Made by a program: the position numbers and the translations under genes. A stretch of DNA of 64,000 nt from Fervidicoccus fontis Kam940 (GTDB lineage: Archaea; Thermoproteota; Thermoprotei_A; Sulfolobales; Fervidicoccaceae): assembly GCF_000258425.1 (NCBI RefSeq), contig NC_017461.1:1208949-1272948 (forward strand), in the 5' to 3' direction. Below are positions 9,369-26,925 of this stretch, piece by piece (within the stretch, counting starts at the first letter, position 1; every line of letters starts with the position of its first letter). The notes below the pieces were generated by a model. The model was not told the origin of the DNA. It saw nothing but the letters and a program-made list of their open reading frames with translations, and did no database searches.

Positions 9369-10196
9369 TTAAGGTTTACATCCTTCATCGCATATATGTA
9401 AGTGTTTATCACCGACTTCAATTGCTGTGCCTCCATATATATTTCTCAAAACATCTATTTTATAGACATTTTCAGGCTTTCCAAAAGTATAATAATTCCT
9501 ACTAAGTAGTAACATGTAGTTGGTGTTTTTCATTAACAAATTAGGATCGTGGCTCGTTATAATGACAAGTTTCTCTCTGGACAGCTTGACTATTATTTCA
9601 GCGAGATCTATTCTTGTTGCTGGGTCTATAGAAGAGAAAGGCTCATCGAGGAGCATTACGGGTTTATCTTTTAATAATGCTTTAGCAATAAAGACTTTTT
9701 GTTTCTGACCACCACTGAGCTCTCTCATATCTTTTTCAAAAGCGGTCTCTTCCAGTCTAACGAACTTTAGTGTGTTTTTGATTCTGTTTGTAATGTTATT
9801 GTTAATTTTAAATCTAGGCCATCTCTCTTCAAATGCGAGTTCCCACTCTAAAAACTCCCTTGCACTTATTGGAAAGTTCAAAGACTTAGAAGAAATTATG
9901 AGTTGTGGAACATAACTAAAGTACTTAGATGCGAGTCTAGGGTTACCAGTAATATCTTCGCCATTAACAATGATCTTTCCCTCTTTAGGATTATATAGAC
10001 CGAGTAGCAATTTAAATAGTGTAGTTTTTCCAGCTCCATTAGGACCTACGACTTGCATTAGTCCTTTTTTTGGCAAACTGAAAGATAAGTTTTCAAAAAT
10101 ATTTTCGCTGTTGTATGAAAACCTAATTTTCTCTACTAGCAAATATTTTTCAAATGTTTGTTCTTTCTTCAAAATAATGTTTTCAGCTTTTTCCAA
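9369..10196 (-). CDS. Metal ABC transporter ATP-binding protein (ZnuC/MntB type)
   Basis: An ABC ATPase of about 275 residues: Walker A GPNGAGKTT, Q-loop YVPQ, signature LSGGQKQK, Walker B VMLLDEPFSSID and switch His in TSHD. It belongs to the zinc/manganese uptake branch by length and by its divergent partners at 10266 and 11334. The C terminus (GDKHLHICDEGCKP) is rich in His and Cys and may bind metal. Start: AGGGTG (10204-10209) is well placed for TTG 10196; an upstream GTG at 10235 would put the start inside the operator region. It faces the binding-protein gene across a short shared promoter with two GTGCAC palindromes. Confidence 0.88.
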   Translation of the reverse strand: MEKAENIILKKEQTFEKYLLVEKIRFSYNSENIFENLSFSLPKKGLMQVVGPNGAGKTTLFKLLLGLYNPKEGKIIVNGEDITGNPRLASKYFSYVPQLIISSKSLNFPISAREFLEWELAFEERWPRFKINNNITNRIKNTLKFVRLEETAFEKDMRELSGGQKQKVFIAKALLKDKPVMLLDEPFSSIDPATRIDLAEIIVKLSREKLVIITSHDPNLLMKNTNYMLLLSRNYYTFGKPENVYKIDVLRNIYGGTAIEVGDKHLHICDEGCKP

Positions 10197-10236
10197 TGTG
10201 CACACCCTATGATAAAATTTATTAACTTTGTGCACG
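10197..10236. promoter_or_regulatory. Two GTGCAC palindromes in the divergent metal-transporter promoter
   Basis: TGTGCACA (10197-10204) and GTGCAC (10230-10235) lie 32 bp apart, about three helical turns, on either side of AT-rich TATA sequence (GATAAAATTTATTAA). They are well placed to be operators controlling both transporter transcripts. The likely ligand is the NikR-like protein encoded at 12223, but that is inference. Confidence 0.5.
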
Positions 10237-10265
10237 TTAAAAAATTTTTTGCTCAGGTGAGAAAA

Positions 10266-11321
10266 ATGAAGAGAATATTATTTTTCATAACTTTAGTTTT
10301 TCTGTTTGTTGGTTTTAGCCTATCGATTCCAAATACCGCTTTAGCTGAAACTCAAAACCAAACACAAGGTTTCATCGTTACTACTTTCCCTTCATTAGTT
10401 GACGACGTAAAATTGATAACAGGAAACTATTTTACCGTAGTTTCGATAGTTCCGCCTGGTGTGGATCCTCATGACTATTCGCTCACTCCGCAGGATGTAG
10501 ATATTCTGAAAAACGCAACACTTATTATCAGCACTTTGCATACACCCATGGAAGTGCAAATAGATAACTATTTCAAAAGCGGACTACTTCATTCCTATTA
10601 TATTGCTATACCTAACATCACTGGCATAGTATTTGTCGATAATCCCAACAACGGTTTGCCAGATCCTCATATGCCAATTTACGATCCTAATAATTACTTA
10701 AAGTTCCTGTACAACTTAACTCTGACGGTTTCAGAAATTGATCCTTCTCACAAACAATACTACATGCAGAATTATGAAAACATTTCCAATCAAGTTGAAA
10801 GTCTAATAGAAAAATACGAGGGAAAATATAGGGGAACAGCTGTCGCATCTACTCCTGAAGCAGTATATGCTATCAATTGGCTAGGATTTAATGTCACAAG
10901 GCTTTTGCTAACAGAAGAAGAAGCGAGTGTTTCTCCGCAGGATGTGAATACGATAACTTCAATGATAGAGAATGGAACTGCAAATGCCGTAGCTATACTT
11001 GTTTCATTTCCACCACAAAATGGAAGCGTTTCACCTTATTCACAATACGACTCATCATTATACAACATATATACTACATATAAAAAAGGATTTCTACTGG
11101 AAGTGCCATCTCCTGTTACAGGTGGAAGTATATTAAGTAAGCTTCAATTTATAGTAGCTCAATTAAGTAGCTATAACAATACCTCAAATTATACGAGTAA
11201 TTCAAGTATAAGCGAGTCTACCGCTAGTTCATATGTATATATAGTAATAGCAATAATTTTGATAGTTTTAATTACTGTCTTGCTTTATTACTGGAGAAGC
11301 AGAAGGCAAAACAAAAAATAA
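10266..11321 (+). CDS. Metal ABC transporter substrate-binding protein (ZnuA/TroA type)
   Basis: A 351-residue exported binding protein. A signal peptide (residues 1-24, MKRILFFITLVFLFVGFSL) is followed by a TroA fold starting IVTTFPSLVDDVKLITG, with GVDPHDYSLTPQD supplying the first metal-ligand His and DPHMPIYDPNNY a second. A Ser/Thr/Asn-rich stretch and a C-terminal membrane anchor (about 320-342) hold it to the cell surface, common in archaea. Translation begins at ATG 10266 after GGTGA; the open frame extends upstream to 10158 but that part lies in the promoter. The metal (Zn, Mn or Ni) cannot be told from sequence alone. Confidence 0.88.
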   Translation: MKRILFFITLVFLFVGFSLSIPNTALAETQNQTQGFIVTTFPSLVDDVKLITGNYFTVVSIVPPGVDPHDYSLTPQDVDILKNATLIISTLHTPMEVQIDNYFKSGLLHSYYIAIPNITGIVFVDNPNNGLPDPHMPIYDPNNYLKFLYNLTLTVSEIDPSHKQYYMQNYENISNQVESLIEKYEGKYRGTAVASTPEAVYAINWLGFNVTRLLLTEEEASVSPQDVNTITSMIENGTANAVAILVSFPPQNGSVSPYSQYDSSLYNIYTTYKKGFLLEVPSPVTGGSILSKLQFIVAQLSSYNNTSNYTSNSSISESTASSYVYIVIAIILIVLITVLLYYWRSRRQNKK

Positions 11322-11333
11322 GGATGAATTAAA

Positions 11334-12218
11334 ATGAAGATAGAAGACATTTATTTGTCTATGCTAGGATTATCGATACCATTAGCGATAATATTATCAA
11401 TTTCTTATCCGAGCTATTTTAATCCTATTTGGATGACAGTACTTCTTGGCTCTGCTCTGATATATGGAATAATAGGCCCAATCCTTTCAGCTAAAAATCT
11501 GCTCTTTTTAGCAGGTTCTATACCTCATTCAGCACTTCTCTCGGCAAGTATGGGAATTTTGCTGAGCATGATGATTAGCGGAAGCAACCTCGTTTGGTCT
11601 ATAATTTTCAATGTTATTTTAATTTTTACGATAGGTTTGGTGATACATAGAGGCGGTGATCCTAACAAATACACATCAATCTTTATCGGAACTACTGCTT
11701 CATTAACCGTGATCGTCCTTTATTATATAACGAATCACTTCTATTTATTGACAAGCGTAGAATCAATACTTTTAGGCGATCCTCTTCTCAGCACAAGAAG
11801 CGATGCTATCTTGATTTTTGTATTGACAGCGATAACTCTTCTCTTTTTCGGATTAACCTATAAGGAGCACATTTATATAGGAATAACTGGTGAGGAAGCA
11901 AAGCTTGCAGGACTAAGAACAGAAATCTACGAGTTCTTTTTTTATCTGTTTTTAGGCATTACAAGCGCTACACTAATGAAAATAGTTGGTTTCATCCTCA
12001 CACATGTATTTATATTGATACCAGGGGCCGCGGGGAGCTTAGTTGCCAGGAAAAGCAAGGAGGCTATTGCTCTGAGTATGAATATAGCAGCATACTCAGC
12101 GATCATAGGGCTGTTTTTAGGTGTGTTTTTCAATCTTTCACCATCAGGAACGACGGGGATATGCATGATAGCTATATATATAGTCATAAATGTTGCAAAA
12201 AAAGTGTATGGAAGGTGA
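11334..12218 (+). CDS. Metal ABC transporter permease (ZnuB type)
   Basis: A 294-residue polytopic protein of the ABC-3 family with about eight or nine hydrophobic spans. The family region LAGSIPHSALLSASMGILL and the later GEEAKLAGLRTEIYEFFFY with LTHVFILIPGAAG are recognisable. It starts 12 bp after the binding-protein gene and its TGA is followed 4 bp later by the NikR-like gene, so the three form one operon. The partner ATPase is the divergent 9369 gene. Confidence 0.9.
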   Translation: MKIEDIYLSMLGLSIPLAIILSISYPSYFNPIWMTVLLGSALIYGIIGPILSAKNLLFLAGSIPHSALLSASMGILLSMMISGSNLVWSIIFNVILIFTIGLVIHRGGDPNKYTSIFIGTTASLTVIVLYYITNHFYLLTSVESILLGDPLLSTRSDAILIFVLTAITLLFFGLTYKEHIYIGITGEEAKLAGLRTEIYEFFFYLFLGITSATLMKIVGFILTHVFILIPGAAGSLVARKSKEAIALSMNIAAYSAIIGLFLGVFFNLSPSGTTGICMIAIYIVINVAKKVYGR

Positions 12219-12222
12219 AATT

Positions 12223-12618
12223 ATGGGGAAGAAAAGGTTTGGGATTAGCATAGACGAAGGTCTCGCAGATAAGCTGGACAAGCTCAGCAAAGCGCTTTCT
12301 ACCGATAGGTCTGCAATTGTCGAAGATGCAATTAGAGGAGTAATCGCTGAACATTCTCATTACTTATATGAACATGAGTGCAAAGGAATAATGATTTTGG
12401 TTTATAGCGAAGGAAAGGGATGTAGCGTTTTTGTTAGGCAGCTTATTGAAGACTTTAAGGATATTATTCAATTCTCTTCACATTATCATACAGGTAACAA
12501 CTGTACAGAGGTTTTTTTCATTGCGGGCAACTCTCTTCGAATTAGAGACCTCCATTCGGAGGCAAAGAAAAGGAAGGATATTTCAGTAAGGTATCTACCT
12601 ATTTCAGAAATAAGGTAA
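12223..12618 (+). CDS. nikR: NikR-like nickel-responsive regulator
   Basis: A 131-residue protein. The N-terminal ribbon-helix-helix (KKRFGISIDEGLADKLDKL, then DRSAIVEDAIRG) is followed by a C-terminal ACT-like metal domain. The segment HYHTGNNCTEV matches the NikR nickel-site motif H-x-H-x5-C, and HSHYLYEHE is near the position of the remaining His ligand. NikR represses transport genes when nickel is replete. ATG 12223 follows GGAAGGTGAAA. Last gene of the transporter operon, hence likely autoregulated. This suggests the transporter serves nickel, which the group 4 hydrogenase next door requires. A response to another divalent ion is possible. Confidence 0.85.
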   Translation: MGKKRFGISIDEGLADKLDKLSKALSTDRSAIVEDAIRGVIAEHSHYLYEHECKGIMILVYSEGKGCSVFVRQLIEDFKDIIQFSSHYHTGNNCTEVFFIAGNSLRIRDLHSEAKKRKDISVRYLPISEIR

Positions 12619-12936: not shown

Positions 12937-14367
12937 TCACCAGAGCAGAACTGGTAAAGCAATATATGCAGAAACTGTACTTAATGTTACAAGCAGATAT
13001 AGTGCAGTTTTTGTAGGAAGTCCTAGCGGCGATGAATTTGCAATTTTCTCCGATGGTTCTCCCCAAACGCAACTCGTAAGCCATCTCAGCATCCATATAA
13101 AGGCGACAAATGACTCTGCTATCATAATAACTGCGAGAGTATATGATAAGATGCTACCTAATTGAACTGCTGAAAGAATAAGAAGGAGCTTTCCCCAGAA
13201 GCAACCGAATGGAGGGACACCGGTTATTGTTGCAGTAGCTACTGTAAAGCCGATACCTGAAGCTTTCTGCTTTTTAATTAAACCCTTTATCTCTCTCAAA
13301 TCTCTAGTTCCTGAACTCAAAGAAATTGCTCCTGCTGTTAAAAAGAATAGCCCTTTTCCAAACCCGTGAGCGAATATGTATAGAACTGAGGCAATGATAG
13401 CAAGCTTTGAGCCCATAGCTATCAAAGATACGCCGGTGAATATGTAGGATAGTTGAGAAATAGTAGAATATGCCAGCAGTTTCTTTATATCTGTTTGAGG
13501 GAAATAAAGTGTTAGGCTATAGAGCATTGTTATTACAGCAAAAATCGCGCAGATGTATGCGACACTGTTAGGAATGCTTCCCGCCCACATCATGGTTCTT
13601 ATAGCAAGAAATGCACCTAGCTTTACTAATGCTGCTGCATGCAAATAAGCACTTACGGGAGTCGGTGCACTCATTGCCCTTGGCAGCCAAACGTGAAATG
13701 GAAACTGCGCCCCTTTTCCCCATGATGCGATTAATAAACCAATAAGTGAGATTAGCTTTAATCCGCTCGGAAGAGATGAAAGGTTTCTTAAATCCACGCT
13801 ACCCGTTTCATAATATATTATGCCTGTAGCAGCATATAAGCCGAAGGCGGCAATATGTGTGATAGTAAATGCTATTAAGCCAGCAGATTTAGCTTCTTCA
13901 GTTTCATAAAAGCTGATTAATCCCCATGAACAGAGGCTTGTGAGCTCGAAGAATATAATCATAAACGTTAAAGAAGAGGAAAAAACAAACCCTAGTGCTG
14001 AGGACATAAACAATAGCATGAGGGAATAGTATCTGTTGAATTTGCTTGTTATCGGGTGCTCTTTATTGTTCGGCGAAATATAATTCAACGATTCCATAAT
14101 ACTGCAGAAACCTACAATTGCGATCAGCATACCTACTAATGCACTTGCTGCATCCATGTACCACCCTATCTCAATAGGTCCGTAAGAATAGTAAACTTTT
14201 TCATAATCAACTTTTTGCAAAAATGTCAATGCGGCGATTAAAATGCTCAAGAGGGAAGCAATAAGCGAGGACCAAGTTGCTACTTTTTCAGGTCTTTTCG
14301 TAAAAAGGGAGAGGATAGAGCCTATTGCAGGAATCAGAACTAAAAGAGAAACCTGGATATCGATCAT
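12937..14367 (-). CDS. Antiporter-like membrane subunit of hydrogenase complex (third of three)
   Basis: A 476-residue polytopic protein of the proton-translocating NuoL/M/N and MrpD family with about 14 spans. The conserved core is WGKGAQFPFHVWLPRAM followed by PTPVSAYLHAAALVKLG, with the expected Lys and His residues. Related subunits at 17360 and 20407 give the complex three antiporter-like modules, as in Hyf-type formate hydrogenlyase (HyfB, HyfD, HyfF). It sits between the small subunit gene (14374) and a small unknown. It probably couples hydrogen evolution to ion pumping. Confidence 0.9.
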   Translation of the reverse strand: MIDIQVSLLVLIPAIGSILSLFTKRPEKVATWSSLIASLLSILIAALTFLQKVDYEKVYYSYGPIEIGWYMDAASALVGMLIAIVGFCSIMESLNYISPNNKEHPITSKFNRYYSLMLLFMSSALGFVFSSSLTFMIIFFELTSLCSWGLISFYETEEAKSAGLIAFTITHIAAFGLYAATGIIYYETGSVDLRNLSSLPSGLKLISLIGLLIASWGKGAQFPFHVWLPRAMSAPTPVSAYLHAAALVKLGAFLAIRTMMWAGSIPNSVAYICAIFAVITMLYSLTLYFPQTDIKKLLAYSTISQLSYIFTGVSLIAMGSKLAIIASVLYIFAHGFGKGLFFLTAGAISLSSGTRDLREIKGLIKKQKASGIGFTVATATITGVPPFGCFWGKLLLILSAVQLGSILSYTLAVIMIAESFVAFIWMLRWLTSCVWGEPSEKIANSSPLGLPTKTALYLLVTLSTVSAYIALPVLLW

Positions 14368-14373
14368 CTTACA

Positions 14374-15129
14374 TCACCCCTTTAGATAATCTTCAACTCT
14401 TTTGTTGAGCAGTTCAATAATCTCCTTTATTCTGGAATCGTTATTCCATCTAGATAAGAGCCCAGTAGTTTTTTTCTTGAGCTCTTCCAAACTGTTGCAG
14501 TTTCTCATAATTTCTGCGTAGTCCATAAGAAATTTATTTCCTAGCTTATATCCCAAATATCTCCTGCAGTCGAGCTTAAGACTTCTAAAAACGGAATAGC
14601 TTTTTAGCAGTCCTCCAAACTTGAGTTCGCTTTCAGTCGTTTTCCATTCCTTTTCTTCGGAATACTCTAGCTTTTTTATTTTTTGTTCAAGAACATCTAA
14701 TGCTACAAGCATCCCGTGAATTATTGCTGCAGGTCTCGGAGGGCATCCCGGTATGTAAACGTCAACCGGAACAACTTTATCCGCACCACCAAGCGTATCA
14801 TATGTATTATACCATATTCCTCCGCTTGATGCACAGGAACCACATGCAACAACAACGCATGGTTTTGGTGTAGATTCGTAGATGATCTTCATTGCTGGAT
14901 AGAACTGCCTTGTTATAGGACCAGTAATTAAGATAACATCAGCCTGCCTTGGGCTGTATACAACTTTTACGCCAAACCTTTCCACATCGTAGAGAGGAGT
15001 CAACGATGCTAATACTGAGATATCGCACCCATTGCATGAACCGCTATCAACTCGCAAGACAAAGACGCTTCTTGACAATAAATCGTATGCTCTCTTCTTA
15101 AGCTTCTTCCCCTCTTCTTCTAAAATCAT
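14374..15129 (-). CDS. Group 4 [NiFe] hydrogenase small subunit (HycG/HyfI, NuoB-like)
   Basis: A 251-residue NuoB-like protein holding the proximal 4Fe-4S cluster. Ligands are visible in SGSCNGCDISV, VVACGSCASSGG and YIPGCPPRP. The first 150 residues match the family; the remaining 100, charged and helical (KKLEYSEEKEWKTTE onward), form an extension longer than in E. coli HycG. It overlaps the ferredoxin gene by 4 bp and precedes the third antiporter-like subunit. It passes electrons from the ferredoxin subunit to the Ni-Fe site in the large subunit. Confidence 0.93.
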   Translation of the reverse strand: MILEEEGKKLKKRAYDLLSRSVFVLRVDSGSCNGCDISVLASLTPLYDVERFGVKVVYSPRQADVILITGPITRQFYPAMKIIYESTPKPCVVVACGSCASSGGIWYNTYDTLGGADKVVPVDVYIPGCPPRPAAIIHGMLVALDVLEQKIKKLEYSEEKEWKTTESELKFGGLLKSYSVFRSLKLDCRRYLGYKLGNKFLMDYAEIMRNCNSLEELKKKTTGLLSRWNNDSRIKEIIELLNKRVEDYLKG

Positions 15130-15665
15130 CTTCCTCCACCCTTTCCATAGGTTTTGATAATTTTCTCAATGAACCTTTTTCTTTTGCATTCGGAACATAA
15201 GCTCGCAAGCTCGCTTATAACTTCCGCCTTTGATTGTGGGAGAGATGAACGTAAAACATCGATGACGTATTTCACTTCTCTCTCAGTAACATTCATTGAT
15301 TTACCGCATGATGCACATTTTGCAACTTTTAGGTTTGCTACAACCTCAAGATCATCTTTTTTCTTCGATGCTAGCTCAAATTCTTCGTTCTGAATTATTG
15401 CTCCAACTGGGCAGACTTCTTCGCATCTACCACAAAAGATACATCTCCCGTAGAAAATCTTCCATTCCGCATGATTCTCTTTTCTAGTAAAAGTTATCGC
15501 ATCAGGCGGGCAAGCCAACGAACATGAGCCGCATCCTATACATAAATCGAAATTTAAGACCGGCTTTCCTCTATAATCTTCTTCAACCTTTTCAGGGACG
15601 AATGGATATTTTACTGTAGCAATTCCGTATTTAATGCCCTTTGTAATAGTTTTTAAATTGCTCAT
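15126..15665 (-). CDS. Hydrogenase ferredoxin-like subunit (HycF/HyfH, NuoI-like)
   Basis: A 179-residue protein with two 4Fe-4S motifs, CIGCGSCSLACPP and CIFCGRCEEVCPV (about residues 42-84), then two CxxC pairs (CASCGK and CSECKR) at the C terminus. E. coli HycF/HyfH also have the later pairs. It relays electrons within the peripheral arm. It overlaps the small subunit gene by 4 bp and follows the large subunit by 6 bp, a tight operon. Confidence 0.93.
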   Translation of the reverse strand: MSNLKTITKGIKYGIATVKYPFVPEKVEEDYRGKPVLNFDLCIGCGSCSLACPPDAITFTRKENHAEWKIFYGRCIFCGRCEEVCPVGAIIQNEEFELASKKKDDLEVVANLKVAKCASCGKSMNVTEREVKYVIDVLRSSLPQSKAEVISELASLCSECKRKRFIEKIIKTYGKGGGR

Positions 15666-15671
15666 GTATTG

Positions 15672-17363
15672 TCAGACCCCCTTTTTGCTTCTTTTGATTA
15701 TTTCCTCATATTCAACAACTTCAACCCTCTTCGTTCTAACATCAACAACTTCAACCCTTTCAGTACAACTGTAACAGGGATCTATGCTTGCAACGATAAG
15801 CGGAACATCAGCCAAAGTATAACCCCTTGACATATAAGGCACTGAAGGCCAGTTGCTGTATGTCGGCGCTCTAACTCTCCACCTGTAAATTTTGCTGTCT
15901 TCCCCTATAATTGCGAAGTGAACTACCTCCCCCCGAGGGGCTTCTACTGCTCCTATAGCAGGTCTGTAGGCTTCTACTTCTTTAACTTCTTCAAATATCG
16001 GTCCATTAGGCAATCTATCCAGAGCTTGTTCTATTATGCTTAAAGATTCAAATGTCTCTTCGTACCTCACTAAGAATCTTGCGAGTATATCTCCTTCAGT
16101 ATAAAGAGGTATCTTAAAGCTCAGCTCTCTGTAAGCAGCATACGGGTGATCTTTTCTAACATCTCTGTATAATCCAGATCCTCTTGCAACTGGACCAACA
16201 ACATTTAAGGTTCTTGCAACGTCCTTTGGTAGCACTCCGATGCCTTCCATCCTTTTTAAGAGGGTAGAAGTTTTAAGCACAGTCTCTCCGATATCTTTGA
16301 GCTCCACTTCTGTCTTCTTTAAAATCTCGAGAGATTTCTTCCTCCTCTCTTCAATAATGTCCCTTCTGACTCCTCCGACAACATTTATTCCATAAGTCTT
16401 TCTGGCCCCCGTAAGAACTTCTGCTAAGTTCATCAATCTTTCTCTAACTTTCCACAGTTGCATAAATCCCCAATCGAAAGCTGCCAGATGGCTTGCAAGT
16501 CCCAGCCACAGCAAATGGCTTGTTGCCCTCTCAATTTCTAGCATTATTGTCCTGATGTATTTGGCTCTTTCTGGTACATCTATTTTCATAGCTTCCTCTA
16601 TAGCCTGAACATAGGAAGTTGAATGGACGAAGCCGCAAATCCCACATATCCTCTCAGCTAAAAAAGGAACCTGATTATAAGTTAGCCTCGCCTCTCCAAG
16701 TTTTTCAACTCCTCTATGTGCATATGAAAACCTGTAATCAAGGTCAACAACGATCTCTCCATCAAGATATATTCTGAACTGACCTGGTTCATCTGCCATT
16801 ATGTGTATAGGTCCAGCTATATAAGTGGTTATTCCCTCCTCTTTTGGCCATTTATACTCTGCAGGTTTGACTTCACCAGGTCTTATGGTGTAGTCCATAT
16901 CCTTTCTCAGCGGGTATATGCCATCGGGCCAATCATCGGGCAATATCAGCTTTCTAGGATCGGGATGACCTTCAGGTATAACACCAAAGAGGTCTTTAGC
17001 TTCCCTTTCATACCAATTAGCTGCAGGCAATTCAGGTGTCACTGATTGGAAGCGAGGATTATTTCCTGGTATCATTGTATATACAATAATCCATGGCTTG
17101 GGGGAGGAGCTTTCTTCCTTCTCTTCAATAGAGAAAACATAATCAAGCCTGAAAGATCCATTTATTTTTCTCATATCGCTTACCGACATTGTGCTAAGAA
17201 ATCCCCCAAGCTCCCAGAAAATATAGCTACAGATCTTCAATAGCGCGTCTTTTCTTATTCCAACGAATACTTTGTCCGGATAGGTTCTTTCAATGCTTAT
17301 AATGTCACTCTTGAAATTGCTATCTAATTGTTTAATATAGTAAGAAATTCTTTCTTCTGTCAT
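15672..17363 (-). CDS. Group 4 [NiFe] hydrogenase large subunit fused to NuoC domain (HycE/HyfG)
   Basis: 563 residues. A NuoC-like 30-kDa domain (about 1-150, ANWYEREAKDLFGVIPEGH) is fused to a NuoD-like catalytic domain. Both nickel-binding pairs are intact: RICGICGFVHS and DPCYSCTERVEV, which marks a true hydrogenase and not complex I. A 27-residue tail after the last CxxC pair resembles the HycE peptide removed by HycI, and a HycI-like protease is encoded at 25481. ATG 17363 overlaps the preceding stop as ATGA and follows GAGGTG; an upstream in-frame start at 17486 would run into the previous gene. Confidence 0.95.
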   Translation of the reverse strand: MTEERISYYIKQLDSNFKSDIISIERTYPDKVFVGIRKDALLKICSYIFWELGGFLSTMSVSDMRKINGSFRLDYVFSIEEKEESSSPKPWIIVYTMIPGNNPRFQSVTPELPAANWYEREAKDLFGVIPEGHPDPRKLILPDDWPDGIYPLRKDMDYTIRPGEVKPAEYKWPKEEGITTYIAGPIHIMADEPGQFRIYLDGEIVVDLDYRFSYAHRGVEKLGEARLTYNQVPFLAERICGICGFVHSTSYVQAIEEAMKIDVPERAKYIRTIMLEIERATSHLLWLGLASHLAAFDWGFMQLWKVRERLMNLAEVLTGARKTYGINVVGGVRRDIIEERRKKSLEILKKTEVELKDIGETVLKTSTLLKRMEGIGVLPKDVARTLNVVGPVARGSGLYRDVRKDHPYAAYRELSFKIPLYTEGDILARFLVRYEETFESLSIIEQALDRLPNGPIFEEVKEVEAYRPAIGAVEAPRGEVVHFAIIGEDSKIYRWRVRAPTYSNWPSVPYMSRGYTLADVPLIVASIDPCYSCTERVEVVDVRTKRVEVVEYEEIIKRSKKGV

Positions 17364-18820
17364 AACAACACCTCTTTTGCTGCGTTTTCTAAGTACGACC
17401 AGATCAATCCTGGATAAATTCCTATGATTAGAGAAAGCGAAATTAGAAGCAAGATTGGAAGCCAAACCCAAACTCGGATCTTCCAATTACTTTCTGTAGA
17501 TGGCTTTCCAAATAACATGTTCGAGAACTTCCATACAAGTGCAGCAAATGCTATTACTAAAAGTGCAATCATCGTAATAATTCCTGCTAAATTGTTCTCC
17601 TCAGCTCCAGACATTACTACAAAGAGACCAGAATAAAATGTGCTGAATGGAGGACAAAGCACTATGCCCAGCATCCCCAGAAGTACTAATGTTCCAAGCA
17701 CTGGAGATGCTTTAATTATTCCTCTTATTCTGTTAATGTTTCTAGTATTGTAAATGTTCATTATAGCGCCTGAACTAAGAAATAGCGAGCCCTTTATCAA
17801 AGTGTGGCTTATAAGCTGAAACACTGCACCAATTATTCCTATATAGCTTCCAAAGCCTAGTCCGCATGCTATAATTCCCATTTGTTCTATACTTGAAAAA
17901 GCGAGAAGCCTCTTAACATCTCTTGCTGTAATCATGAGCATTGATGCAATAAACATCGATAGAAGTCCAATTATTAGGAATATATATCTAACAAAGCTAC
18001 CTAAACCAACAGCTACCATTATTCCATAATATCTCATCAATACGTACATGGAGCATTCTATTAATATTCCTGAAAACAGCGCAGAAACCGGAGCTGGAGC
18101 CTCAGAGTGTGCGTCTGGCAACCATGCATGAAGTGGAACTAGTCCAGCCTTTGTTCCAAATCCTACTAAAAGAAATATAAAGATCAGTTTTATCATTGAG
18201 ATGTAATTCGAGAATAGATTTGAACTATTGAGGATGCTGGAATACAGCCAAGGCTTCGTAAGTCCTGCCTGATATGATATTGAATAGAATAGAACCGTGC
18301 CATATAACGAGAATGAAAGTCCCACGGAACAAAGGATCAAATACTTCCAGGAGGCCTCTAAGCTTTCAGGCTTGTTATATATGCCTACTAAAAAAGTCGA
18401 GGCGATTGTAGTAGCTTCTATCGCTATCCACATAACAACTATATTGTTAGTTGTTACCACAAGCAGCATTGTAAATATAAATACGTTTAAAAGGGAATAG
18501 AAAAGCCTTTTTCTTTCTTTTGAAATTTCGCCAATCGTTATTTCATGTTCAATATAACCAATAGAGAATATGCTTGCAGCAAAATACAGAAGCGATAAAG
18601 CAAAAATCATTATAGCGCTGAGATAATCTACTGCGAATTCATCATCTGCAAATACTAGCGCACTACTTTTAACATTTTGTAGAATTAAAATTGATAACAT
18701 AGTTTCTATAATCGAGGAGGATAGTGTTGAAATTTCCTGCATCCTAAATTTTTCAATCAATGAAAGTATTGATGATGCTATAGGAACTATAAGGATCAAT
18801 AAAATGAGGGATATTTCCAT
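17360..18820 (-). CDS. Antiporter-like membrane subunit (HyfF/HyfD, NuoN/M-like)
   Basis: 486 residues with about 14 membrane spans. It contains the NuoM/N core FGTKAGLVPLHAWLPDAH followed by SEAPAPVSALFSG, and TARDVKRLLAFSSIEQMGI, whose Lys and Ser/His contexts are typical of proton-pumping subunits. Last residues overlap the large-subunit start by 4 bp. HyfF of E. coli, at the same place before HyfG, is the closest analogue by gene order; this is inference from synteny and length. Confidence 0.92.
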   Translation of the reverse strand: MEISLILLILIVPIASSILSLIEKFRMQEISTLSSSIIETMLSILILQNVKSSALVFADDEFAVDYLSAIMIFALSLLYFAASIFSIGYIEHEITIGEISKERKRLFYSLLNVFIFTMLLVVTTNNIVVMWIAIEATTIASTFLVGIYNKPESLEASWKYLILCSVGLSFSLYGTVLFYSISYQAGLTKPWLYSSILNSSNLFSNYISMIKLIFIFLLVGFGTKAGLVPLHAWLPDAHSEAPAPVSALFSGILIECSMYVLMRYYGIMVAVGLGSFVRYIFLIIGLLSMFIASMLMITARDVKRLLAFSSIEQMGIIACGLGFGSYIGIIGAVFQLISHTLIKGSLFLSSGAIMNIYNTRNINRIRGIIKASPVLGTLVLLGMLGIVLCPPFSTFYSGLFVVMSGAEENNLAGIITMIALLVIAFAALVWKFSNMLFGKPSTESNWKIRVWVWLPILLLISLSLIIGIYPGLIWSYLENAAKEVLL

Positions 18821-18824
18821 ACTT

Positions 18825-19472
18825 CTACCACCTCAAGTTCTTCAACTGAGTGACGTCGACTGTATTATTTACCTTCTTTATATGTACAGCTAGAATGCAA
18901 CAAACTGCAATCAGGAAGACTGCATCAGTAGTGCAACCAATTTCAATTGTCTCAGGGATTCCAGGTGCAAGCAGTGCAAGGGTTAAGTGAGATCCGTTCT
19001 CAAAATGACAGAGTCCCAAAATTTGCTTGAAGATACTTTTTTTGGTGACCATCTGCTTCAGACCTATTAGGAACAGTGAAATAGATACAGAAAGAGGAAT
19101 GTAGTCTTCTCCTATCATTCCCTTAAATTGCCCGCCTGTCCAAAAGCTGAAAACCAGCAAAATTGCATAGATTACCATAGTCAGCCACGATGGAATAGAA
19201 GTTTTTATATCCTTTCTTTCACCGCTCTTTTCAAGCGATTTGATAACAAGCCATGGTACAATTAAGGTTTTTGTTACGAAAGCCACTAATGCCCAAATGA
19301 GAAAGTATGAATCTCTTATAGACATCATAGCAAATATAAGTGTCAGTAAGAATGACTGAAGCCTATATATATTAGCAGCTCTTCTCAAATCTATAGTTTC
19401 AGAGATCCATATTGCAGTGAAAATCATTAAGGCGCTTAAACCATTTATGATTATCGCTATATTGCTTGTCAT
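18825..19472 (-). CDS. Hydrogenase-4 component E-like membrane subunit (HyfE)
   Basis: About 215 residues, six or seven hydrophobic spans, beginning MTSNIAIIINGLSALMIF. It matches HyfE (a NuoK-related subunit) in size, in the IDLRRAANIYRLQS turn after the second span and in position between the NuoH-like and HyfF-like genes. ATG 19472 lies a few bases after the previous stop and after GGAGGTTGTG; an in-frame ATG at 19487 precedes that site. It forms part of the membrane arm. Confidence 0.87.
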   Translation of the reverse strand: MTSNIAIIINGLSALMIFTAIWISETIDLRRAANIYRLQSFLLTLIFAMMSIRDSYFLIWALVAFVTKTLIVPWLVIKSLEKSGERKDIKTSIPSWLTMVIYAILLVFSFWTGGQFKGMIGEDYIPLSVSISLFLIGLKQMVTKKSIFKQILGLCHFENGSHLTLALLAPGIPETIEIGCTTDAVFLIAVCCILAVHIKKVNNTVDVTQLKNLRW

Positions 19473-19474
19473 TT

Positions 19475-20410
19475 TCACAACCTCCATATTGCTAACACTA
19501 GGGCAATAATGCTTAGGAAAATAGAAACTTCAAAATACTGGGGCATTTCAACGAATCTTATCCTGGCGTTGCTTACTGAAAGAGTCAGAAATATCATGTG
19601 TATGATGAAGATTTTTGCCATAAAAGAAAGAGTTCCAACTAGCAAACCTGCAAGAGAAAAAGTTGAAGATATGCCCCAAGGCACAAATAAAGATAGAAAC
19701 AGAGAAGGAATTACAACTCTCTTAAGCATTTGGTCCAATTTAAATAAAGCAAGAGTTTTTCCGCTGTATTCAACTGAAATACCTTCCTGTAATTCTTGTT
19801 CTGCTTCGGCCACATCGAACGGCTGAACTCCTGTCTCTAAGAGCAATGCTATAAATCCAGCTATAGCTGCTAAGTAAAAAGACGGATAACTGAGCAGCTG
19901 GAGGTTTGATTCAACATAATAGCTAATTTTTCCCAAATCAGTAGTACCTGTTGTGACAACCAGGCATAGAACCGGCAGTATTAATGCAACTTCTCCAAGG
20001 ATTCCTAAATATGTCTCTCTCCATGCACTTGGAATGCCGTAAGGAGAGCTAGCATCAAAGGCTGCAAGACTAAGAATGAACCTGAATATTATTAGAGAAT
20101 AAATAATCAGAATTATATCTCTTAGACTGAAACCTATGCTAGATATAATTGGGATCATTATTGAGAGCGTCAATAATACAGCTAGTGCTATTATTGGGGC
20201 CTTTTCAAATATCCATGAACTGCATTCTGGTTTTATCTCTTCCCTCTTTCTCCATAGTTTTACCAGATCTCTAAATGGTTGGCTTATTGGCGGTCCGATC
20301 CTTGAATGTAGCCTTGCTATCAGCTTTCTCCTAACACCTTCCAAGAACAATGACATGAAAAGTACGATAGTTATTTGCAATAAAGATACTATAATTATTT
20401 CCCACATCAA
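19475..20410 (-). CDS. NuoH-like membrane subunit (HycD/HyfC)
   Basis: 311 residues, about eight spans. The cytoplasmic loop ARLHSRIGPPISQPFRDLVK corresponds to the conserved loop of NuoH/HycD (RLHxRxGP). A second acidic loop, DVAEAEQELQEG, matches the NuoH region near the quinone-like site. It anchors the peripheral hydrogenase arm to the membrane. It overlaps the HyfB-like gene by 4 bp. Confidence 0.93.
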   Translation of the reverse strand: MMWEIIIVSLLQITIVLFMSLFLEGVRRKLIARLHSRIGPPISQPFRDLVKLWRKREEIKPECSSWIFEKAPIIALAVLLTLSIMIPIISSIGFSLRDIILIIYSLIIFRFILSLAAFDASSPYGIPSAWRETYLGILGEVALILPVLCLVVTTGTTDLGKISYYVESNLQLLSYPSFYLAAIAGFIALLLETGVQPFDVAEAEQELQEGISVEYSGKTLALFKLDQMLKRVVIPSLFLSLFVPWGISSTFSLAGLLVGTLSFMAKIFIIHMIFLTLSVSNARIRFVEMPQYFEVSIFLSIIALVLAIWRL

Positions 20411-22503
20411 GGTATCGACACCACTGCTATTGTTATTAAAACTATGAAGGTCAGAAGAATGTAAAGAATATATGTTATTACAGAACCAGATTGAATGTTT
20501 TTAGCTATATTTGCAAGCTTCTTAAAAGCAGAAGGGACTATTGTAACGAGCTTATCGATCGGATCATTATAAGCAGGAATCTTTAGGGTTACTTGAGCAT
20601 ATTTTTCTATTGGTGGGTTTATCAAAATCCTTACTGCAATTTTATAAGCTCCAAAAAATCCCCCCTCCCTTTCAACCTCTTCTCTTATTCCAAATATATT
20701 TGAGAGGTTCCTTCTTAAAGGTTGAACAAATGAGCTTGAGTGGACAGGAGGGATCGCTTCAGTACCGCTAACCCACGTCTTCCCTAGTCTCCAAATTCTT
20801 TTTCCTACTTTTGTGATCACAACTGTTGGTATAGAGACCATTATGAGAAGTGCTAGGGTATACATAGGAAAAGAGATAGACGTAGCTTCGTTCCACAAAG
20901 GAAATGACAATATTAGCGCTGAAGTATGAATAGCATTAGCATAGGAAAATGGAAGAGCTTGAATTGTAGGGATCTTGAGTAAATCTACTACTTGAGGCAC
21001 GAAGATGCCCATGGTTATACAGAATGCCGAAAGAGGTATTAAAGAGAGCTTAATAGCATAAGATTCCTTCGGTTTTTCTTTTAGTTCAAATTTTGAATAC
21101 CCCAGAAAACCAATACCAAAAGTTTTTATATATGCCATGACCGCAACTGCTCCCACTATAGCTATGACCAGAACAGACAATATCGAAATGATAGAAACAA
21201 CAAAACTTTGAGCGCTCCATGCAGAAAACATTAGGCTTTGGTAAAGTAACCATTCGCTTGCAAAGCACCCAAAAGGAGGAATAGCTGCAATGCACCATGA
21301 AGCGATGAAAAATGTCCATGTTGTCACTGGGAGATATTTACTAAGTCCTCCAAGTTGGTCTATGTTTCGAGTGTTAAATATGTTTGTAACCGTTCCAGTA
21401 CCTAAAAATAGTAAGGATTTAGCTAATGAGTGGTTAAGGGTCTGATAAAGAGTAGCAACCAAAGCTATTGTCGCGGCCGATGCAAGCCCGTAGGAACTAA
21501 AGAGTATAGTGAGCCCTATTCCAAGGATAATAATTCCCATATTTTCTATAGTAGAATAAGCGAGAAATCTTTTCAAATCGCTTTGAACGCTTGCAAGAAA
21601 AATTCCAGTAATCGCGGTTATCAGTCCCATAGCTACTGCAAAAGCTCCTATAGCGCTCATTCTTCCTATAGGAAGGAAGAACAGTGCAAATCTTATAATT
21701 CCATATATGGCCATTTTTTCCATAGCTCCGCTTAAAATTGCAACGGTATTGCTTGATGCTACCGTATATGCCTCTGGAAGCCACGCATGTAGAGGCACCA
21801 TTCCAGCTTTTATTCCGAAACCAAAAAACGCTAAAATAAAAGCCAACGAAGCTTCTATTTGGGGAAGATATGAAGAAAACCTCTGAAAGTAATCGAATGA
21901 GAGCGATCGAGAATTTATAAACAAAACAGCAAAGGATAACAACACTAGTAGTCCTCCTAAATGCGCAAAGATAAAGTACAGCATGCCTGCCCTTCTTGTG
22001 CTCCCATCTGTATGATTATAAACTATTAGAAAGTATGAAATGAGAGTCATCAGCTCCCAATAAAACATAAATGAGAGAACATCATTAGACAAAAGTAGCA
22101 TAATCATTGTTAAATCAAGCAAATTGATAAATGAGGAGAAGACTCTAATGTCATATTTTTTTGAAAAAATGCGATTGTAATCGATCGAGTATATTGATAC
22201 AAATATGTATACAAGCGATATGCATACTAGGAAAAACGATGAAAGAGGATCGATCTTTACAGAAAAGAACTTTTCCCCTTGAATAAAAATGCCTCCGGTT
22301 TCTATGCTAATGCCATTTATAAGTGAGTATATTGAGAAAGAAAGGAGAAGTATAGAAGACAAGATCGCTGGTACATAAGCTAAAAAAAGAACACATCTAT
22401 CTCTTTTTGAAGCAAATGGTAACAATGAGCCTAGAAATAGTAATAGCAGTGAAGAATAGAGTAAGTAAAAAACATCTGAACCTCCAAGGACAGATAGGCT
22501 CAT
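20407..22503 (-). CDS. Antiporter-like membrane subunit (HyfB/HycC, NuoL-like)
   Basis: 698 residues with roughly 16-18 spans. The core GFGIKAGMVPLHAWLPEAY and SDLKRFLAYSTIENMGII match the NuoL/HycC family. The extended C terminus (FGAYKIAVRILINPPIEKYAQ) is typical of HyfB/HycC, where a long lateral helix and final span follow. It starts after AGGAGGG and lies just downstream of the ferredoxin gene, as HyfB follows HyfA. Confidence 0.93.
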   Translation of the reverse strand: MSLSVLGGSDVFYLLYSSLLLLFLGSLLPFASKRDRCVLFLAYVPAILSSILLLSFSIYSLINGISIETGGIFIQGEKFFSVKIDPLSSFFLVCISLVYIFVSIYSIDYNRIFSKKYDIRVFSSFINLLDLTMIMLLLSNDVLSFMFYWELMTLISYFLIVYNHTDGSTRRAGMLYFIFAHLGGLLVLLSFAVLFINSRSLSFDYFQRFSSYLPQIEASLAFILAFFGFGIKAGMVPLHAWLPEAYTVASSNTVAILSGAMEKMAIYGIIRFALFFLPIGRMSAIGAFAVAMGLITAITGIFLASVQSDLKRFLAYSTIENMGIIILGIGLTILFSSYGLASAATIALVATLYQTLNHSLAKSLLFLGTGTVTNIFNTRNIDQLGGLSKYLPVTTWTFFIASWCIAAIPPFGCFASEWLLYQSLMFSAWSAQSFVVSIISILSVLVIAIVGAVAVMAYIKTFGIGFLGYSKFELKEKPKESYAIKLSLIPLSAFCITMGIFVPQVVDLLKIPTIQALPFSYANAIHTSALILSFPLWNEATSISFPMYTLALLIMVSIPTVVITKVGKRIWRLGKTWVSGTEAIPPVHSSSFVQPLRRNLSNIFGIREEVEREGGFFGAYKIAVRILINPPIEKYAQVTLKIPAYNDPIDKLVTIVPSAFKKLANIAKNIQSGSVITYILYILLTFIVLITIAVVSIP

Positions 22504-22517
22504 GTTTTTCCCTCCTT

Positions 22518-22994
22518 TTATTTTTTGGCTAAAGGCGCTGCTCTTTTTGTAACTGTGGCTTCACGCTTCTGCGCAGCTACATCTTCTATTTTTCTATACG
22601 TTATTGCATCTGCTGGGCATACGGTTGCACATGCGGGCTTGAGTCCAGCCTTTCTCCTGTCCATACATAAGTCACACTTAACAGCTACTTTTAATTCTGA
22701 GTAGAGCATCGGTATTCCGAATGGGCATGCAATTGTACACATGCCGCAACCTATACATTGCAATGAATCAACATAGACAGCACCATCTTCATCTCTTTTC
22801 ATTGCACCAACTGGACATATGTTTATACATTGTGCATCTTTGCAGTGCATGCAGGTTAATGGAACATTAACGAGGGAATCCTCGACCGTATATACAGTTA
22901 TGTTTGAAATTCCGTTATGGAGCGTCTCACATGCAACTTCACATGCTCTGCATCCAATGCATTTTTTAGGATCCATTATCAATAGAACTGTCAT
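22518..22994 (-). CDS. Polyferredoxin electron-transfer subunit (HyfA/HydN/CooF type)
   Basis: 158 residues with four 4Fe-4S motifs: CIGCRACEVAC, CMHCKDAQCINICPVGA, CIGCGMCTIACPFG and CDLCMDRRKAGLKPACATVCP. This is the HydN/HyfA/CooF class that joins a molybdopterin dehydrogenase to a hydrogenase. ATG 22994 overlaps the stop of the molybdopterin subunit gene by 4 bp and follows AGGTGA. A basic tail follows the last cluster. Confidence 0.95.
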   Translation of the reverse strand: MTVLLIMDPKKCIGCRACEVACETLHNGISNITVYTVEDSLVNVPLTCMHCKDAQCINICPVGAMKRDEDGAVYVDSLQCIGCGMCTIACPFGIPMLYSELKVAVKCDLCMDRRKAGLKPACATVCPADAITYRKIEDVAAQKREATVTKRAAPLAKK

Positions 22995-25036
22995 TGTTTT
23001 TCACCTTGAATGATAATACTGCATGGAAAAACTTTTAGCTCGGGTTTTCTGTACTTTTTAGCTATCTCACAACTAAAAATTGAATTTGCTCCAAAATGCC
23101 AAGGTACAGCTATAACATCTTTAACGATATTTTGAGTAAGGTGAACTTTACACGAAAACTCTCCATATTCCGTTTTAATTTTTACCTTATCCCCTTCATT
23201 AATTCCCAGAGATTTTGCAGTTTCAACATTGAGCTCTCCTATCGCTTCTCCCCACCTCTTCATCAATGGGCTGAAGTTCCTCGTTAGAGTTGCAGCTCCA
23301 TGCTGCCCTGCATATTCAAATGTAATGAGTAAAAATGGTAAGTTTGCGCTTTGCTTTTCAATTTCAAAAGTCTCGTTCAATTGTAGCTCAAATTTTCCAC
23401 TTGGGGTATAGAAGCCCTTCAAGAAAAGAAATTTCTCCTCATTTTTATCATTTGTATTAATGTTCCAAAAGATACCACTCGTGTTTTCTTTAAGTTTTTC
23501 TGGTGTGATATTGCTATATAGCGGGTTTACGCTTGATATTTCTCTCGTCACTTCTTCAGTGCTATTAAAGCTAAAGAAGCTTTCAAACCCAAGCTCTTTA
23601 GCGATTTCCCTAACGATCATCCAATCCGGCTTCGCTTCTCCTACAGGCTCTACAGCTTTATTGTTCCACCTCACCCTCCTCTCAAAATTTGTAACAGTTC
23701 CATCTTTTTCCGGAAGCGTTGCAGCTGGAAGGATTATATCGGCAAATTCAGCCGTTTCAGTAAAAAATGAATCTTGAACGACTAAAAAGTCCAAATTTTC
23801 CAATATCTTTTTGGTTAAGTTCATGTTGGGAAGCAAAACTAATGGGTTCATCCCCATAATGTAAAGTCCTTTTATTTTTGTTGAATTAGATGAATATAAC
23901 ATTTCAAAGGCATTCATCCCTTCTTTATCTGGTACATAAAAGCCCCATATTTTAGAAAACTTTTCTATTTCATTTTTATTAGAAACATCTATATAGCCAG
24001 GAAGGAAGTTGGGAAGCACTCCCATATCGCTTGCTCCCTGAAGATTAACTTCATTTTTGATTCCGCCCACCACGCAACCTTCTTTTCCCAGGTATCCGCA
24101 CAATGCTGAAATAGTAAGCAATGCTTCAATTATATCATCTCCATTTATCTGTTGCAATATTCCTAATCCCCACAGAATTGAAGCTTTTCCTGAAGTAGCA
24201 ATCAGCTTAGCTACCTGCCTTATTGTATTTGCTTGTATTCCGCAGATCTTCTCGACTACTTCAGGACTGTAGCTATTGATTACTTCTATAGATTTCTGCG
24301 ATAAGTTAATCCTTTCAGAATAATTCTTATCGTATAACTTCTCGTTGAAAATCACATTTAGTAAGGAAAGCGCAAGAGCATAATCAGTTTTTGGATTCAG
24401 CATTAAGTGAATATCCGAAAACCAAGCAGTTTTTGTTTTCCTGGGATCAACTACAACAACTTTTGCACCCTTTTCTTTTGCTTTTAGAATATATTGGCCC
24501 ATTAAGACAGGATTAGTTTCTGCAGGGTTGAAACCCCAAATAAGAACAACAGAAGATTTTAAAAGCTCTTCATATGTGGAAGAAAGAGAGGGTATTCCTA
24601 AAGATTTGTACATAGCATTGATTTCAGATAGAGCAAAAAAAGAGGCGTGATGATCAATGTTATTAGTTCCGATAGCCCTAGCGAATTTTTGAAAAACGTA
24701 GTTGTCTTCGTTAGTACAATTTGCTGAGCCCAAAAAACCCAAAGATGATGGGTCATCGCTTTTTGTTATCTCTTTTATTCTCTCGGAAATCTCCTTTATC
24801 GCATCGCCCCAGCTTATTTCGACAAAACCATTTTCTTTTCTTTTCATCGGATGAGCTAATCTGTTAGAGGAATTCAAAAATGAAGGAATAGAGAAAGGTT
24901 TAGGACAAGCTTTTCCCTTGCTTACATGGTCGCCTTCAAACGCATCAACTGCATAGGGCCTTCCAAACTCATCAATTTTTAATGTGACAGCGCATCCTAA
25001 TCCGCAGAAAGGGCATATTAACTGTTTATTCGTCAT
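22991..25036 (-). CDS. Formate-dehydrogenase-like molybdopterin oxidoreductase lacking the catalytic Sec/Cys
   Basis: About 681 residues, the size of E. coli FdhF. The N-terminal 4Fe-4S motif CPFCGLGC ... KACPK is intact, the bis-pterin folds are present and the C-terminal MopB_CT domain ends TEYGEFSCKVHL ... VIAVPWHFG. The formate site is altered: where FdhF has ARVUHGPS (Sec140-His141) this protein has ASFFALSE, and the catalytic Arg of RGQNNVQG is replaced (IKNEVNLQGASDMG). It may therefore act on another substrate or be structural. ATG 25036 follows GTGAT; first gene of the hydrogenase operon, hence probably its electron-input module. Confidence 0.88.
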   Translation of the reverse strand: MTNKQLICPFCGLGCAVTLKIDEFGRPYAVDAFEGDHVSKGKACPKPFSIPSFLNSSNRLAHPMKRKENGFVEISWGDAIKEISERIKEITKSDDPSSLGFLGSANCTNEDNYVFQKFARAIGTNNIDHHASFFALSEINAMYKSLGIPSLSSTYEELLKSSVVLIWGFNPAETNPVLMGQYILKAKEKGAKVVVVDPRKTKTAWFSDIHLMLNPKTDYALALSLLNVIFNEKLYDKNYSERINLSQKSIEVINSYSPEVVEKICGIQANTIRQVAKLIATSGKASILWGLGILQQINGDDIIEALLTISALCGYLGKEGCVVGGIKNEVNLQGASDMGVLPNFLPGYIDVSNKNEIEKFSKIWGFYVPDKEGMNAFEMLYSSNSTKIKGLYIMGMNPLVLLPNMNLTKKILENLDFLVVQDSFFTETAEFADIILPAATLPEKDGTVTNFERRVRWNNKAVEPVGEAKPDWMIVREIAKELGFESFFSFNSTEEVTREISSVNPLYSNITPEKLKENTSGIFWNINTNDKNEEKFLFLKGFYTPSGKFELQLNETFEIEKQSANLPFLLITFEYAGQHGAATLTRNFSPLMKRWGEAIGELNVETAKSLGINEGDKVKIKTEYGEFSCKVHLTQNIVKDVIAVPWHFGANSIFSCEIAKKYRKPELKVFPCSIIIQGEKQ

Positions 25037-25204
25037 TGTTATCACAACTCTTTTTACCTAAAATATTTGATAAATATATATAAATATAATTGTTATTTAT
25101 TTTTACTTTTAATTTTATATTTGATTTTTTATTATTAATTTATCAAAAAATGTAAATAAAGATTTTGTTTGATAGCATGCTAAAAATTAAGGATTATTAT
25201 ACGT

Positions 25205-25430: not shown

Positions 25431-25480
25431 AATCTCATTGCTACCATAAAAAGCAAGTTTTTCGATTATAAATTGTGGTA

Positions 25481-25936
25481 ATGATGATTCAGGAAAAATT
25501 AAAAAATTTATTAAATGAAAAAAAAGCCCTGATAATTTGTCTTGGAAATGAGCTAAGAGAAGATGATGGTGTAGGACCGTATATTTGCGATAAACTAAAC
25601 TGCAAAAATACAGTTTCAGTGGACGTTCCAGAAAATTTGAATAACAAAGCTTTTAGCTTTCAGCCTGATGTAATCGTTATAATTGACTCTGTTGACTTCG
25701 GTGCTTCTCCGGGGTCTATTTTAATAACTGAAGGGATTAGCGATAAAACTTCTATTAGCATACACAAGTTACCAATTCGCCTGATATTTGATGCTGTTGG
25801 GTTAAAAGCGGAAAAAATTTTCTTGATAGGAATACAGCCGAAGAGTTTAAACTTCGGAGAGCAATTGAGCGAAGAAGTTAAAAATTCTGCTGACTTTTTA
25901 ATAGAACAGATAAAGGAGCAATTTTCATGTCTCTAA
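25481..25936 (+). CDS. Hydrogenase maturation protease (HycI/HyaD family)
   Basis: About 151 residues. The N-terminal GNELREDDGVGPYI contains the family's nickel-sensing Asp motif (G-N-x-L-x-x-D-D-G-x-G-P). IDSVDFGASPG and the later SIHKLP provide the second Asp and the His. The enzyme clips the C-terminal peptide of the hydrogenase large subunit after nickel insertion; the substrate is most likely the 15672 gene. It is transcribed divergently from the hydrogenase operon. Start is ATG 25481 or 25484; an in-frame GTG at 25475 is less likely. Confidence 0.9.
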   Translation: MMIQEKLKNLLNEKKALIICLGNELREDDGVGPYICDKLNCKNTVSVDVPENLNNKAFSFQPDVIVIIDSVDFGASPGSILITEGISDKTSISIHKLPIRLIFDAVGLKAEKIFLIGIQPKSLNFGEQLSEEVKNSADFLIEQIKEQFSCL

Positions 25937-26559: not shown

Positions 26560-26925
26560 ATGAGTGAAGGTATAAGCAAGAAAAAAATGATTGAAATAGA
26601 ATTAAAAAGCATATCAGATCTTGCTCGTTTATGTGCAACAACTTCTCCAATTGGACAGACAATGCATATTATTAGATATGAATCTAACAATGAAACAAGG
26701 CTTGGAATAATAGCGATACTAAGGGACTTTTACGAATTACGTGGGATTCCCATATTTTATTATGTTAAATGTGCTGAAAATGATAACTGCAAAAAGTCTC
26801 ACTACATTTCATTCCGAATAACGGAAAATGGAGAAAATGTGGCATTTGCTGATAAGAACATACCTGGAACCATAATGATCCCTATAATAGATATAAAAGA
26901 ATTACCAGGATTTCTAATGGATTGA
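26560..26925 (+). CDS. Unrecognised conserved-looking protein
   Basis: 121 residues. An N-terminal basic helix (SKKKMIEIELKSISDLARL) is followed by a mixed alpha/beta region with CAENDNCKKSHYISF and ends DIKELPGFLMD. There are three Cys, two of them in C-x5-C, and no membrane span. I cannot assign a family. It is a single gene with AT-rich flanks; GGGCG upstream of ATG 26560 is a poor ribosome binding site. Confidence 0.55.
   Translation: MSEGISKKKMIEIELKSISDLARLCATTSPIGQTMHIIRYESNNETRLGIIAILRDFYELRGIPIFYYVKCAENDNCKKSHYISFRITENGENVAFADKNIPGTIMIPIIDIKELPGFLMD

Follow-up and report, generated by a model that had tools for sequence, protein, structure and literature searches.

A formate dehydrogenase-like subunit with an altered active site in the formate hydrogenlyase-type hydrogenase operon of Fervidicoccus fontis Kam940

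The closest described counterparts of the locus considered here are the Escherichia coli formate hydrogenlyase (FHL; Hyd-3, PDB 7z0s/7z0t), whose relay of eight clusters has cluster A1 of the formate dehydrogenase (FDH) subunit FdhF at its outer end (PMC9474812), E. coli hydrogenase-4 (Hyf), and the fdhAB-mhyCDEFGH operon of Thermococcus litoralis, which is associated with formate-dependent H2 evolution (PMC2432063). The input module can be exchanged, as in Thermosphaera and relatives, which carry sudA in place of fdhA (PMC3035292). Complex I is proposed to have an FHL-type complex as its nearest hydrogenase ancestor, and FdhF and the complex I subunit NDUFS1 are homologous (PMC9474812). Lineages of the MopB fold that are free of Mo/W, namely Nqo3, ActB and FhcB, have been tied to aerobic metabolism (PMC10100899).

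We analyzed a 64,000-nucleotide stretch of the F. fontis genome (hereafter the window), corresponding to positions 1208949-1272948 of a genome that consists of one contig of 1,319,206 bases, is 99.9% complete and encodes reverse gyrase; the relatives of this genome form one archaeal order. Within the window, an fdhA-like gene is the first of a ten-gene [NiFe] hydrogenase operon of the hydrogenase-4/FHL type, all on the reverse strand. This gene (22991..25036) encodes an FdhA/FdhF-like MopB subunit of 681 amino acids, identified by homology, alignment and structural modeling, with a probable ATG start at 25036 (a GTG at 25045 is a possible alternative) and a stop codon ending at 22991. It overlaps by 4 bases the gene for a HycB/HyfA-like polyferredoxin subunit of 158 amino acids with 16 Cys residues and four predicted [4Fe-4S] clusters (22518..22994). 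There follow, in order, a HyfB-like antiporter subunit (20407..22503), a HyfC/HycD (NuoH-like) membrane subunit (19475..20410), a HyfE-like membrane subunit (18825..19487; above the curated cut-off of PRK11492), a HyfF-like antiporter subunit (17360..18820), a HyfG/HycE-like [NiFe] large subunit that is a NuoC+NuoD fusion (15672..17363), a HyfH/HycF (NuoI-like) ferredoxin subunit (15126..15665), a HyfI/HycG (NuoB-like) small subunit (14374..15129) and a HyfD-like antiporter subunit (12937..14367; above the curated cut-off of PRK06525); the HyfB-, HyfC-, HyfF-, HyfH- and HyfI-like assignments come from profile matches. The listed 604-residue reading frame of the HycE-like gene probably begins too early, and with its start corrected to about 17363, the spacing between operon genes is -13 to +14 bases. 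A divergent gene for a HycI-type hydrogenase maturation protease (25475..25936, forward strand) adjoins the operon, with a 121-residue open reading frame lacking any Pfam match (26560-26925) between the protease gene and one for a TrmB-type regulator. Beside the operon, at 9369-12618, lie genes for a ZnuA-type metal ABC transporter followed by a NikR-like regulator (RHH + NikR_C), possibly serving nickel uptake for the hydrogenase.

The subunits expected of a Group 4a/Hyf-type hydrogenase are present, namely HycE (NuoCD-like), HycF, HycG, HycD, the antiporter subunits and HyfD/HyfE. Against solved structures, the HycE-like subunit scored 561 bits with E. coli HycE (7z0s) and 255 bits with the Pyrococcus furiosus membrane-bound hydrogenase (MBH), and both of its NiFe CxxC motifs are intact (L1, RICGICGFVH; L2, DPCYSCTER). 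The predicted relay cysteines of the operon are also intact and the antiporter-like subunits look so. The locus thus resembles the E. coli enzymes in its HycE-like subunit, its FdhF-HycB-HycF-HycG relay and its Hyf-type arm with HyfB, D, E and F, and it resembles the T. litoralis operon in its plan of fdhA, fdhB and membrane hydrogenase (PMC2432063), a plan also shared by four related genomes (G164, G085, G179 and G081).

It differs from the E. coli enzymes at the active site of the dehydrogenase subunit. The original prediction held that the Mo/W ligand, His141 and the substrate Arg333 of E. coli FdhF are all changed in this protein while its 4Fe-4S motif and fold regions are intact, and we find the same on both counts. 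In the whole-length phmmer alignment with solved FDHs, ASFFALSE (residues 131-138; 24623..24646) replaces the ARxC/UHxxx active-site loop, lying opposite ARVXHGPS of E. coli FdhF (X = Sec140), and IKNEVNLQG (residues 326-334; 24035..24061) replaces xRGQNNVQG, lying opposite VRGQNNVQG. The Sec/Cys metal-ligand position is accordingly Phe134 and that of His141 is Ala135, and the substrate Arg333 corresponds to Lys327, with positive charge preserved as RGQ becomes Lys327-Asn-Glu; all three residues are intact in E. coli. The Arg preceding the Cys (R132) has become Ser, Gly328 has likewise been lost, and Glu574 (23315..23317) occupies the position of a near-invariant Arg (R574) in a C-terminal, putatively MGD-binding loop. 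Retained are the [4Fe-4S] ligands C8, C11, C15 and C44 (24905..25015), the relay Lys46 just beyond C44, and many motifs of the dinucleotide fold, including NPAETNP, VVDPRKT and TETAEFADIILPAA. A Cys/Sec-His pair elsewhere in the loop was found neither in the alignment nor in other frames: translation of the other reading frames around both motifs yielded neither Cys-His nor RGQ, ruling out a compensated local frameshift that hides the pair.

The AlphaFold2 model of the protein has a mean pLDDT of 90.3 and a pTM of 0.92, with E. coli FDH-H (1fdi; TM 0.95) as its best PDB match and further matches to cofactor-bearing enzymes including arsenite oxidase. The model preserves the FDH fold, with lower confidence at the putative cofactor-binding loops than in an intact control, the G164 FdhA (pLDDT 93.5), at 83 versus 91 for the site loop and 57-73 versus 79-85 for the MGD-loop region at 571-600. 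The protein scored 590 bits with the FdhF-type FDH alpha model (TIGR01591), below the curated cut-off of 666, whereas the intact relatives tested (781, 876 and 921) were all above it; with the NuoG model it scored 143 bits versus 127-137 in intact relatives, missing the cut-off of 470. It begins at the MopB Fe4S4 domain, and the N-terminal Fe-S domains of NuoG are absent.

The altered site is known from one genome of the genus, and we searched two partly overlapping sets of related genomes from the same order and class (98 and 229 genomes) for comparison. All eight of the closest homologues, 41-45% identical, keep ARLCH and RGQNNVQG, as do the intact FHL operons of the order (FdhA identity 40-45%), and the best-matching loci of the two genome sets include no close homologue with this altered site. 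The fdhA-HycB pair adjoins membrane-hydrogenase genes in G164, G085 and G179, and in G081 an operon with a 53%-identical HycE lies beside an intact, divergent fdhA (HycE identity is 51-53% in G164 and G081). Because FdhA is intact in these four equivalent operons, the complex probably descends from a genuine formate hydrogenlyase. A candidate operon regulator of 416 residues, apparently with a DNA-binding region at its C terminus, is encoded between fdhA and the FHL operon of G081 (L082:11331-12581). In G069 (L006, L076; G069:C46), the FdhA of an equivalent hydrogenase operon is altered in another way (GRYCQ / PGAHCGLC), keeping the Cys, losing the His and Arg and having the Cys-rich PGAHCGLCAACLG where RGQ would be; this protein is accelerated relative to its own HycB-like partner and possibly has a new substrate specificity. 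An 884-residue FDH/NuoG-like protein of a Bacillota metagenome-assembled genome (MAG; DUQX01000010.1, L032:5463-8117) reads SLYYS and QRECNAQG where the two motifs would be; its neighbors are a NuoE-like gene and a NuoF-like gene that carries a fused glutamate-synthase-like domain. Being a NuoG-like fusion beside a NuoF-like gene, it was set aside as a homologue with the same altered site, and it is perhaps another independently dead FDH module.

The extent of the loss at the active site exceeds chance. In the F. fontis protein, 16 of 71 near-invariant columns are lost, as against 0-9 of about 71 per protein in 23 intact homologues; it also differs at 79 of the 240 positions that are constant across the eight closest intact proteins. 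The four segments that line the site lost 19 of 33 invariant columns versus 60 of 207 elsewhere (Fisher p = 0.0015, a value that is indicative, as the segments were picked after the two motifs had been seen). In intact FDHs about as distant (L005, L011, L119, L007), 5-8 of the 33 site columns are lost, with no such concentration, while the G069 protein has the same site-biased loss. Residues 1-120, which include the Fe-S cluster, lost 5 of 37 invariant columns. The pace of change differs too: with one tree topology for both subunits, the branch leading to the F. fontis fdhA measures 1.10 versus 0.43 for G164 and 0.56 for G078 from the same node, and the corresponding branches of the HycB-like partner are 1.14, 1.24 and 1.12. 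FdhA is thus accelerated about 2-2.5-fold and its partner about 1-fold, so that only the dehydrogenase subunit has sped up.

Elsewhere in the genome, the genes for pterin synthesis (MoaA, MoaC and two MoeA) are present together with four AOR-family proteins. The altered site is therefore not explained by an outright loss of pterin synthesis, and the probable users of tungstopterin here are the AORs. These enzymes do not need the guanine dinucleotide form of the pterin. The FdhA-like subunit is the sole PF00384 (Mo/W-bisPGD-family) protein in this 99.9% complete genome, which rules out a second catalytic subunit of the class. Family searches of the genome found neither MobA nor FdhD; of its four NTP-transferase matches, two are sugar nucleotidyltransferases, one is an archaeal GlmU and one is a CobY-like gene that sits in a cobalamin cluster. 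A MobA gene lies near the FDH gene in five related genomes (G164, G025, G151, G153, G182). Four MAGs that are 79-86% complete (G078, G185, G190, G192; L003, L113, L116, L114) encode an intact FdhA without a clear MobA, meaning that they have either a very divergent MobA or an unusual pterin form in their enzymes. We therefore do not take the absence of MobA as proof of a lost cofactor, nor that of FdhD, which several genomes with an intact FDH also lack; together, the two absences are suggestive only.

Taken as a whole, the sequence evidence suggests that a functional formate dehydrogenase module is missing from this FHL-type complex and that its FdhA-like subunit probably carries no W/Mo-bisPGD and oxidizes no formate. 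We consider it probable that the operon encodes an FHL-2/Hyf-type hydrogenase whose FDH subunit has turned pseudoenzyme and is retained as a cap or wire, with another donor, likely ferredoxin, supplying the electrons. A bolder version remains tentative, the odds being somewhat against it: that FdhA has become a cofactor-free electron-entry or scaffold subunit, turning a former FHL into a ferredoxin-oxidizing, ion-pumping hydrogenase in an independent parallel to the step taken by NuoG/Nqo3. With a dead metal site, the complex would need a donor that docks at A1 or at the HycB-like subunit. The likeliest would be ferredoxin, as for MBH, which could be reduced by amino-acid and aldehyde oxidation. 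From the HycB-like subunit, electrons would travel on via HycF and HycG until they reach the [NiFe] site of HycE, with H2 evolution driving ion pumping by the three antiporter-like subunits. In effect, an FHL framework with a NuoG-like remnant would operate in the manner of the P. furiosus MBH. The FdhA-like subunit itself might be kept as a cap or stabilizer of the polyferredoxin, as an entry point through A1, or as both. Without a Mo centre, A1 would be the distal end of the relay, and the suggested role of electron wire would therefore apply only if the donor docks there; otherwise A1 would be an off-path relic, as is cluster N7 of complex I.

The genome encodes sources of ferredoxin, an IOR-like enzyme in addition to the four AORs. 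Another [NiFe] hydrogenase, group-3-like, lies beside hyp genes, and the IOR-like gene and an acyl-CoA synthetase-like gene (both named by inspection) adjoin it, which fits ferredoxin derived from amino-acid fermentation. The HycB-like protein has structural matches to 8c0z, 6x1o and 6x6u, which had suggested an AOR paired directly with a HycB-like gene, but no such neighbor was present at any of the four AOR loci.

Of the two readings first proposed for this subunit, we thus favor the NuoG-like, noncatalytic one. In its favor are the losses of the ligand, His, Arg, Gly328 and R574, their concentration at the site, a conserved Fe-S domain, the FDH alpha score below the cut-off, the acceleration of FdhA but not of its HycB-like partner, the absence of another enzyme of the class and of MobA and FdhD, and intact orthologues in equivalent operons. 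The other reading, that the hydrogenase is fed by a different substrate, we regard as unlikely. The subunit would then bind a W/Mo bis-pterin without a protein ligand and oxidize something other than formate, much as arsenite oxidase functions although no residue of the protein coordinates its Mo. The predicted fold does match cofactor-bearing enzymes of that kind, pterin synthesis genes are at hand, Lys46 and several fold motifs are kept, the substrate Arg gave way to Lys and not to a neutral residue, and the differently altered site of G069 indicates that active-site change in this operon happened twice. However, the joint loss of R132, C134, H135, G328 and R574 exceeds what a switch of substrate usually needs, no MobA was found in the genome to make bis-MGD, and the MGD loop is modeled with lower confidence than in the intact control.

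Less likely again is gene decay, in which formate oxidation was lost recently, the gene is drifting towards a pseudogene and the hydrogenase uses another donor. In its support are the acceleration confined to this subunit and the loss of 79 of 240 clade-invariant residues. Yet the losses cluster at the site and spare the Fe-S domain, which is highly conserved, the fold is confidently predicted, and identity to homologues is still 41-44%. With 681 codons open, a 4-base overlap with the next gene and a well-modeled structure, the gene does not resemble one in decay. That a sequencing or assembly error or a misalignment hides an intact Cys-His pair is barely credible, as neither motif reappears in another frame, the changes affect both of these separate motifs and R574 besides, and the genome is a single 1.3 Mb contig.

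The noncatalytic reading that we prefer places the F. fontis subunit beside other MopB proteins. Like NuoG/Nqo3/NDUFS1, it would have kept the fold and lost the Mo/W-bisPGD within the same NDH/group-4 hydrogenase superfamily; unlike them, it falls far below the NuoG cut-off (143 vs 470), is without an N-terminal 2Fe-2S/4Fe-4S domain or NADH module, and couples through HycB as in FHL. Another MopB-fold subunit without a Mo/W cofactor, QrcB, belongs here as well, in line with its NCBIfam name. ActB (alternative complex III) and FhcB are likewise MopB-fold subunits without the cofactor (PMC10100899). These three differ in belonging to other complexes, ActB and FhcB being from aerobes, whereas the FdhA-like subunit arose separately within cytoplasmic FDHs. 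The dehydrogenase-linked MBX of Thermosphaera and Desulfurococcus is also an archaeal FHL-like complex whose formate input is lost (PMC3035292), but there fdhA has been replaced by sudA, and here it has been kept and appears dead.

In conclusion, cofactor-free MopB subunits are known already in Nqo3/NuoG, ActB and FhcB, and what would be new is the case in an archaeal FHL-type hydrogenase; a literature search, outside of which most subscription papers lay, found no report of one. If true, a Mo/W-free MopB protein would occur in a presumed anaerobe, unlike the lineages linked to aerobes (PMC10100899). Complex I carries a dead FDH-like domain (NuoG/NDUFS1), and an independent dead module in a hydrogenase would make the first step of that route testable, with the intact orthologues in related genomes as controls for asking what a dead module is for and where electrons enter afterwards. 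For F. fontis itself, the labels formate dehydrogenase or formate hydrogenlyase in an annotation would lead to a wrong prediction of its metabolism.
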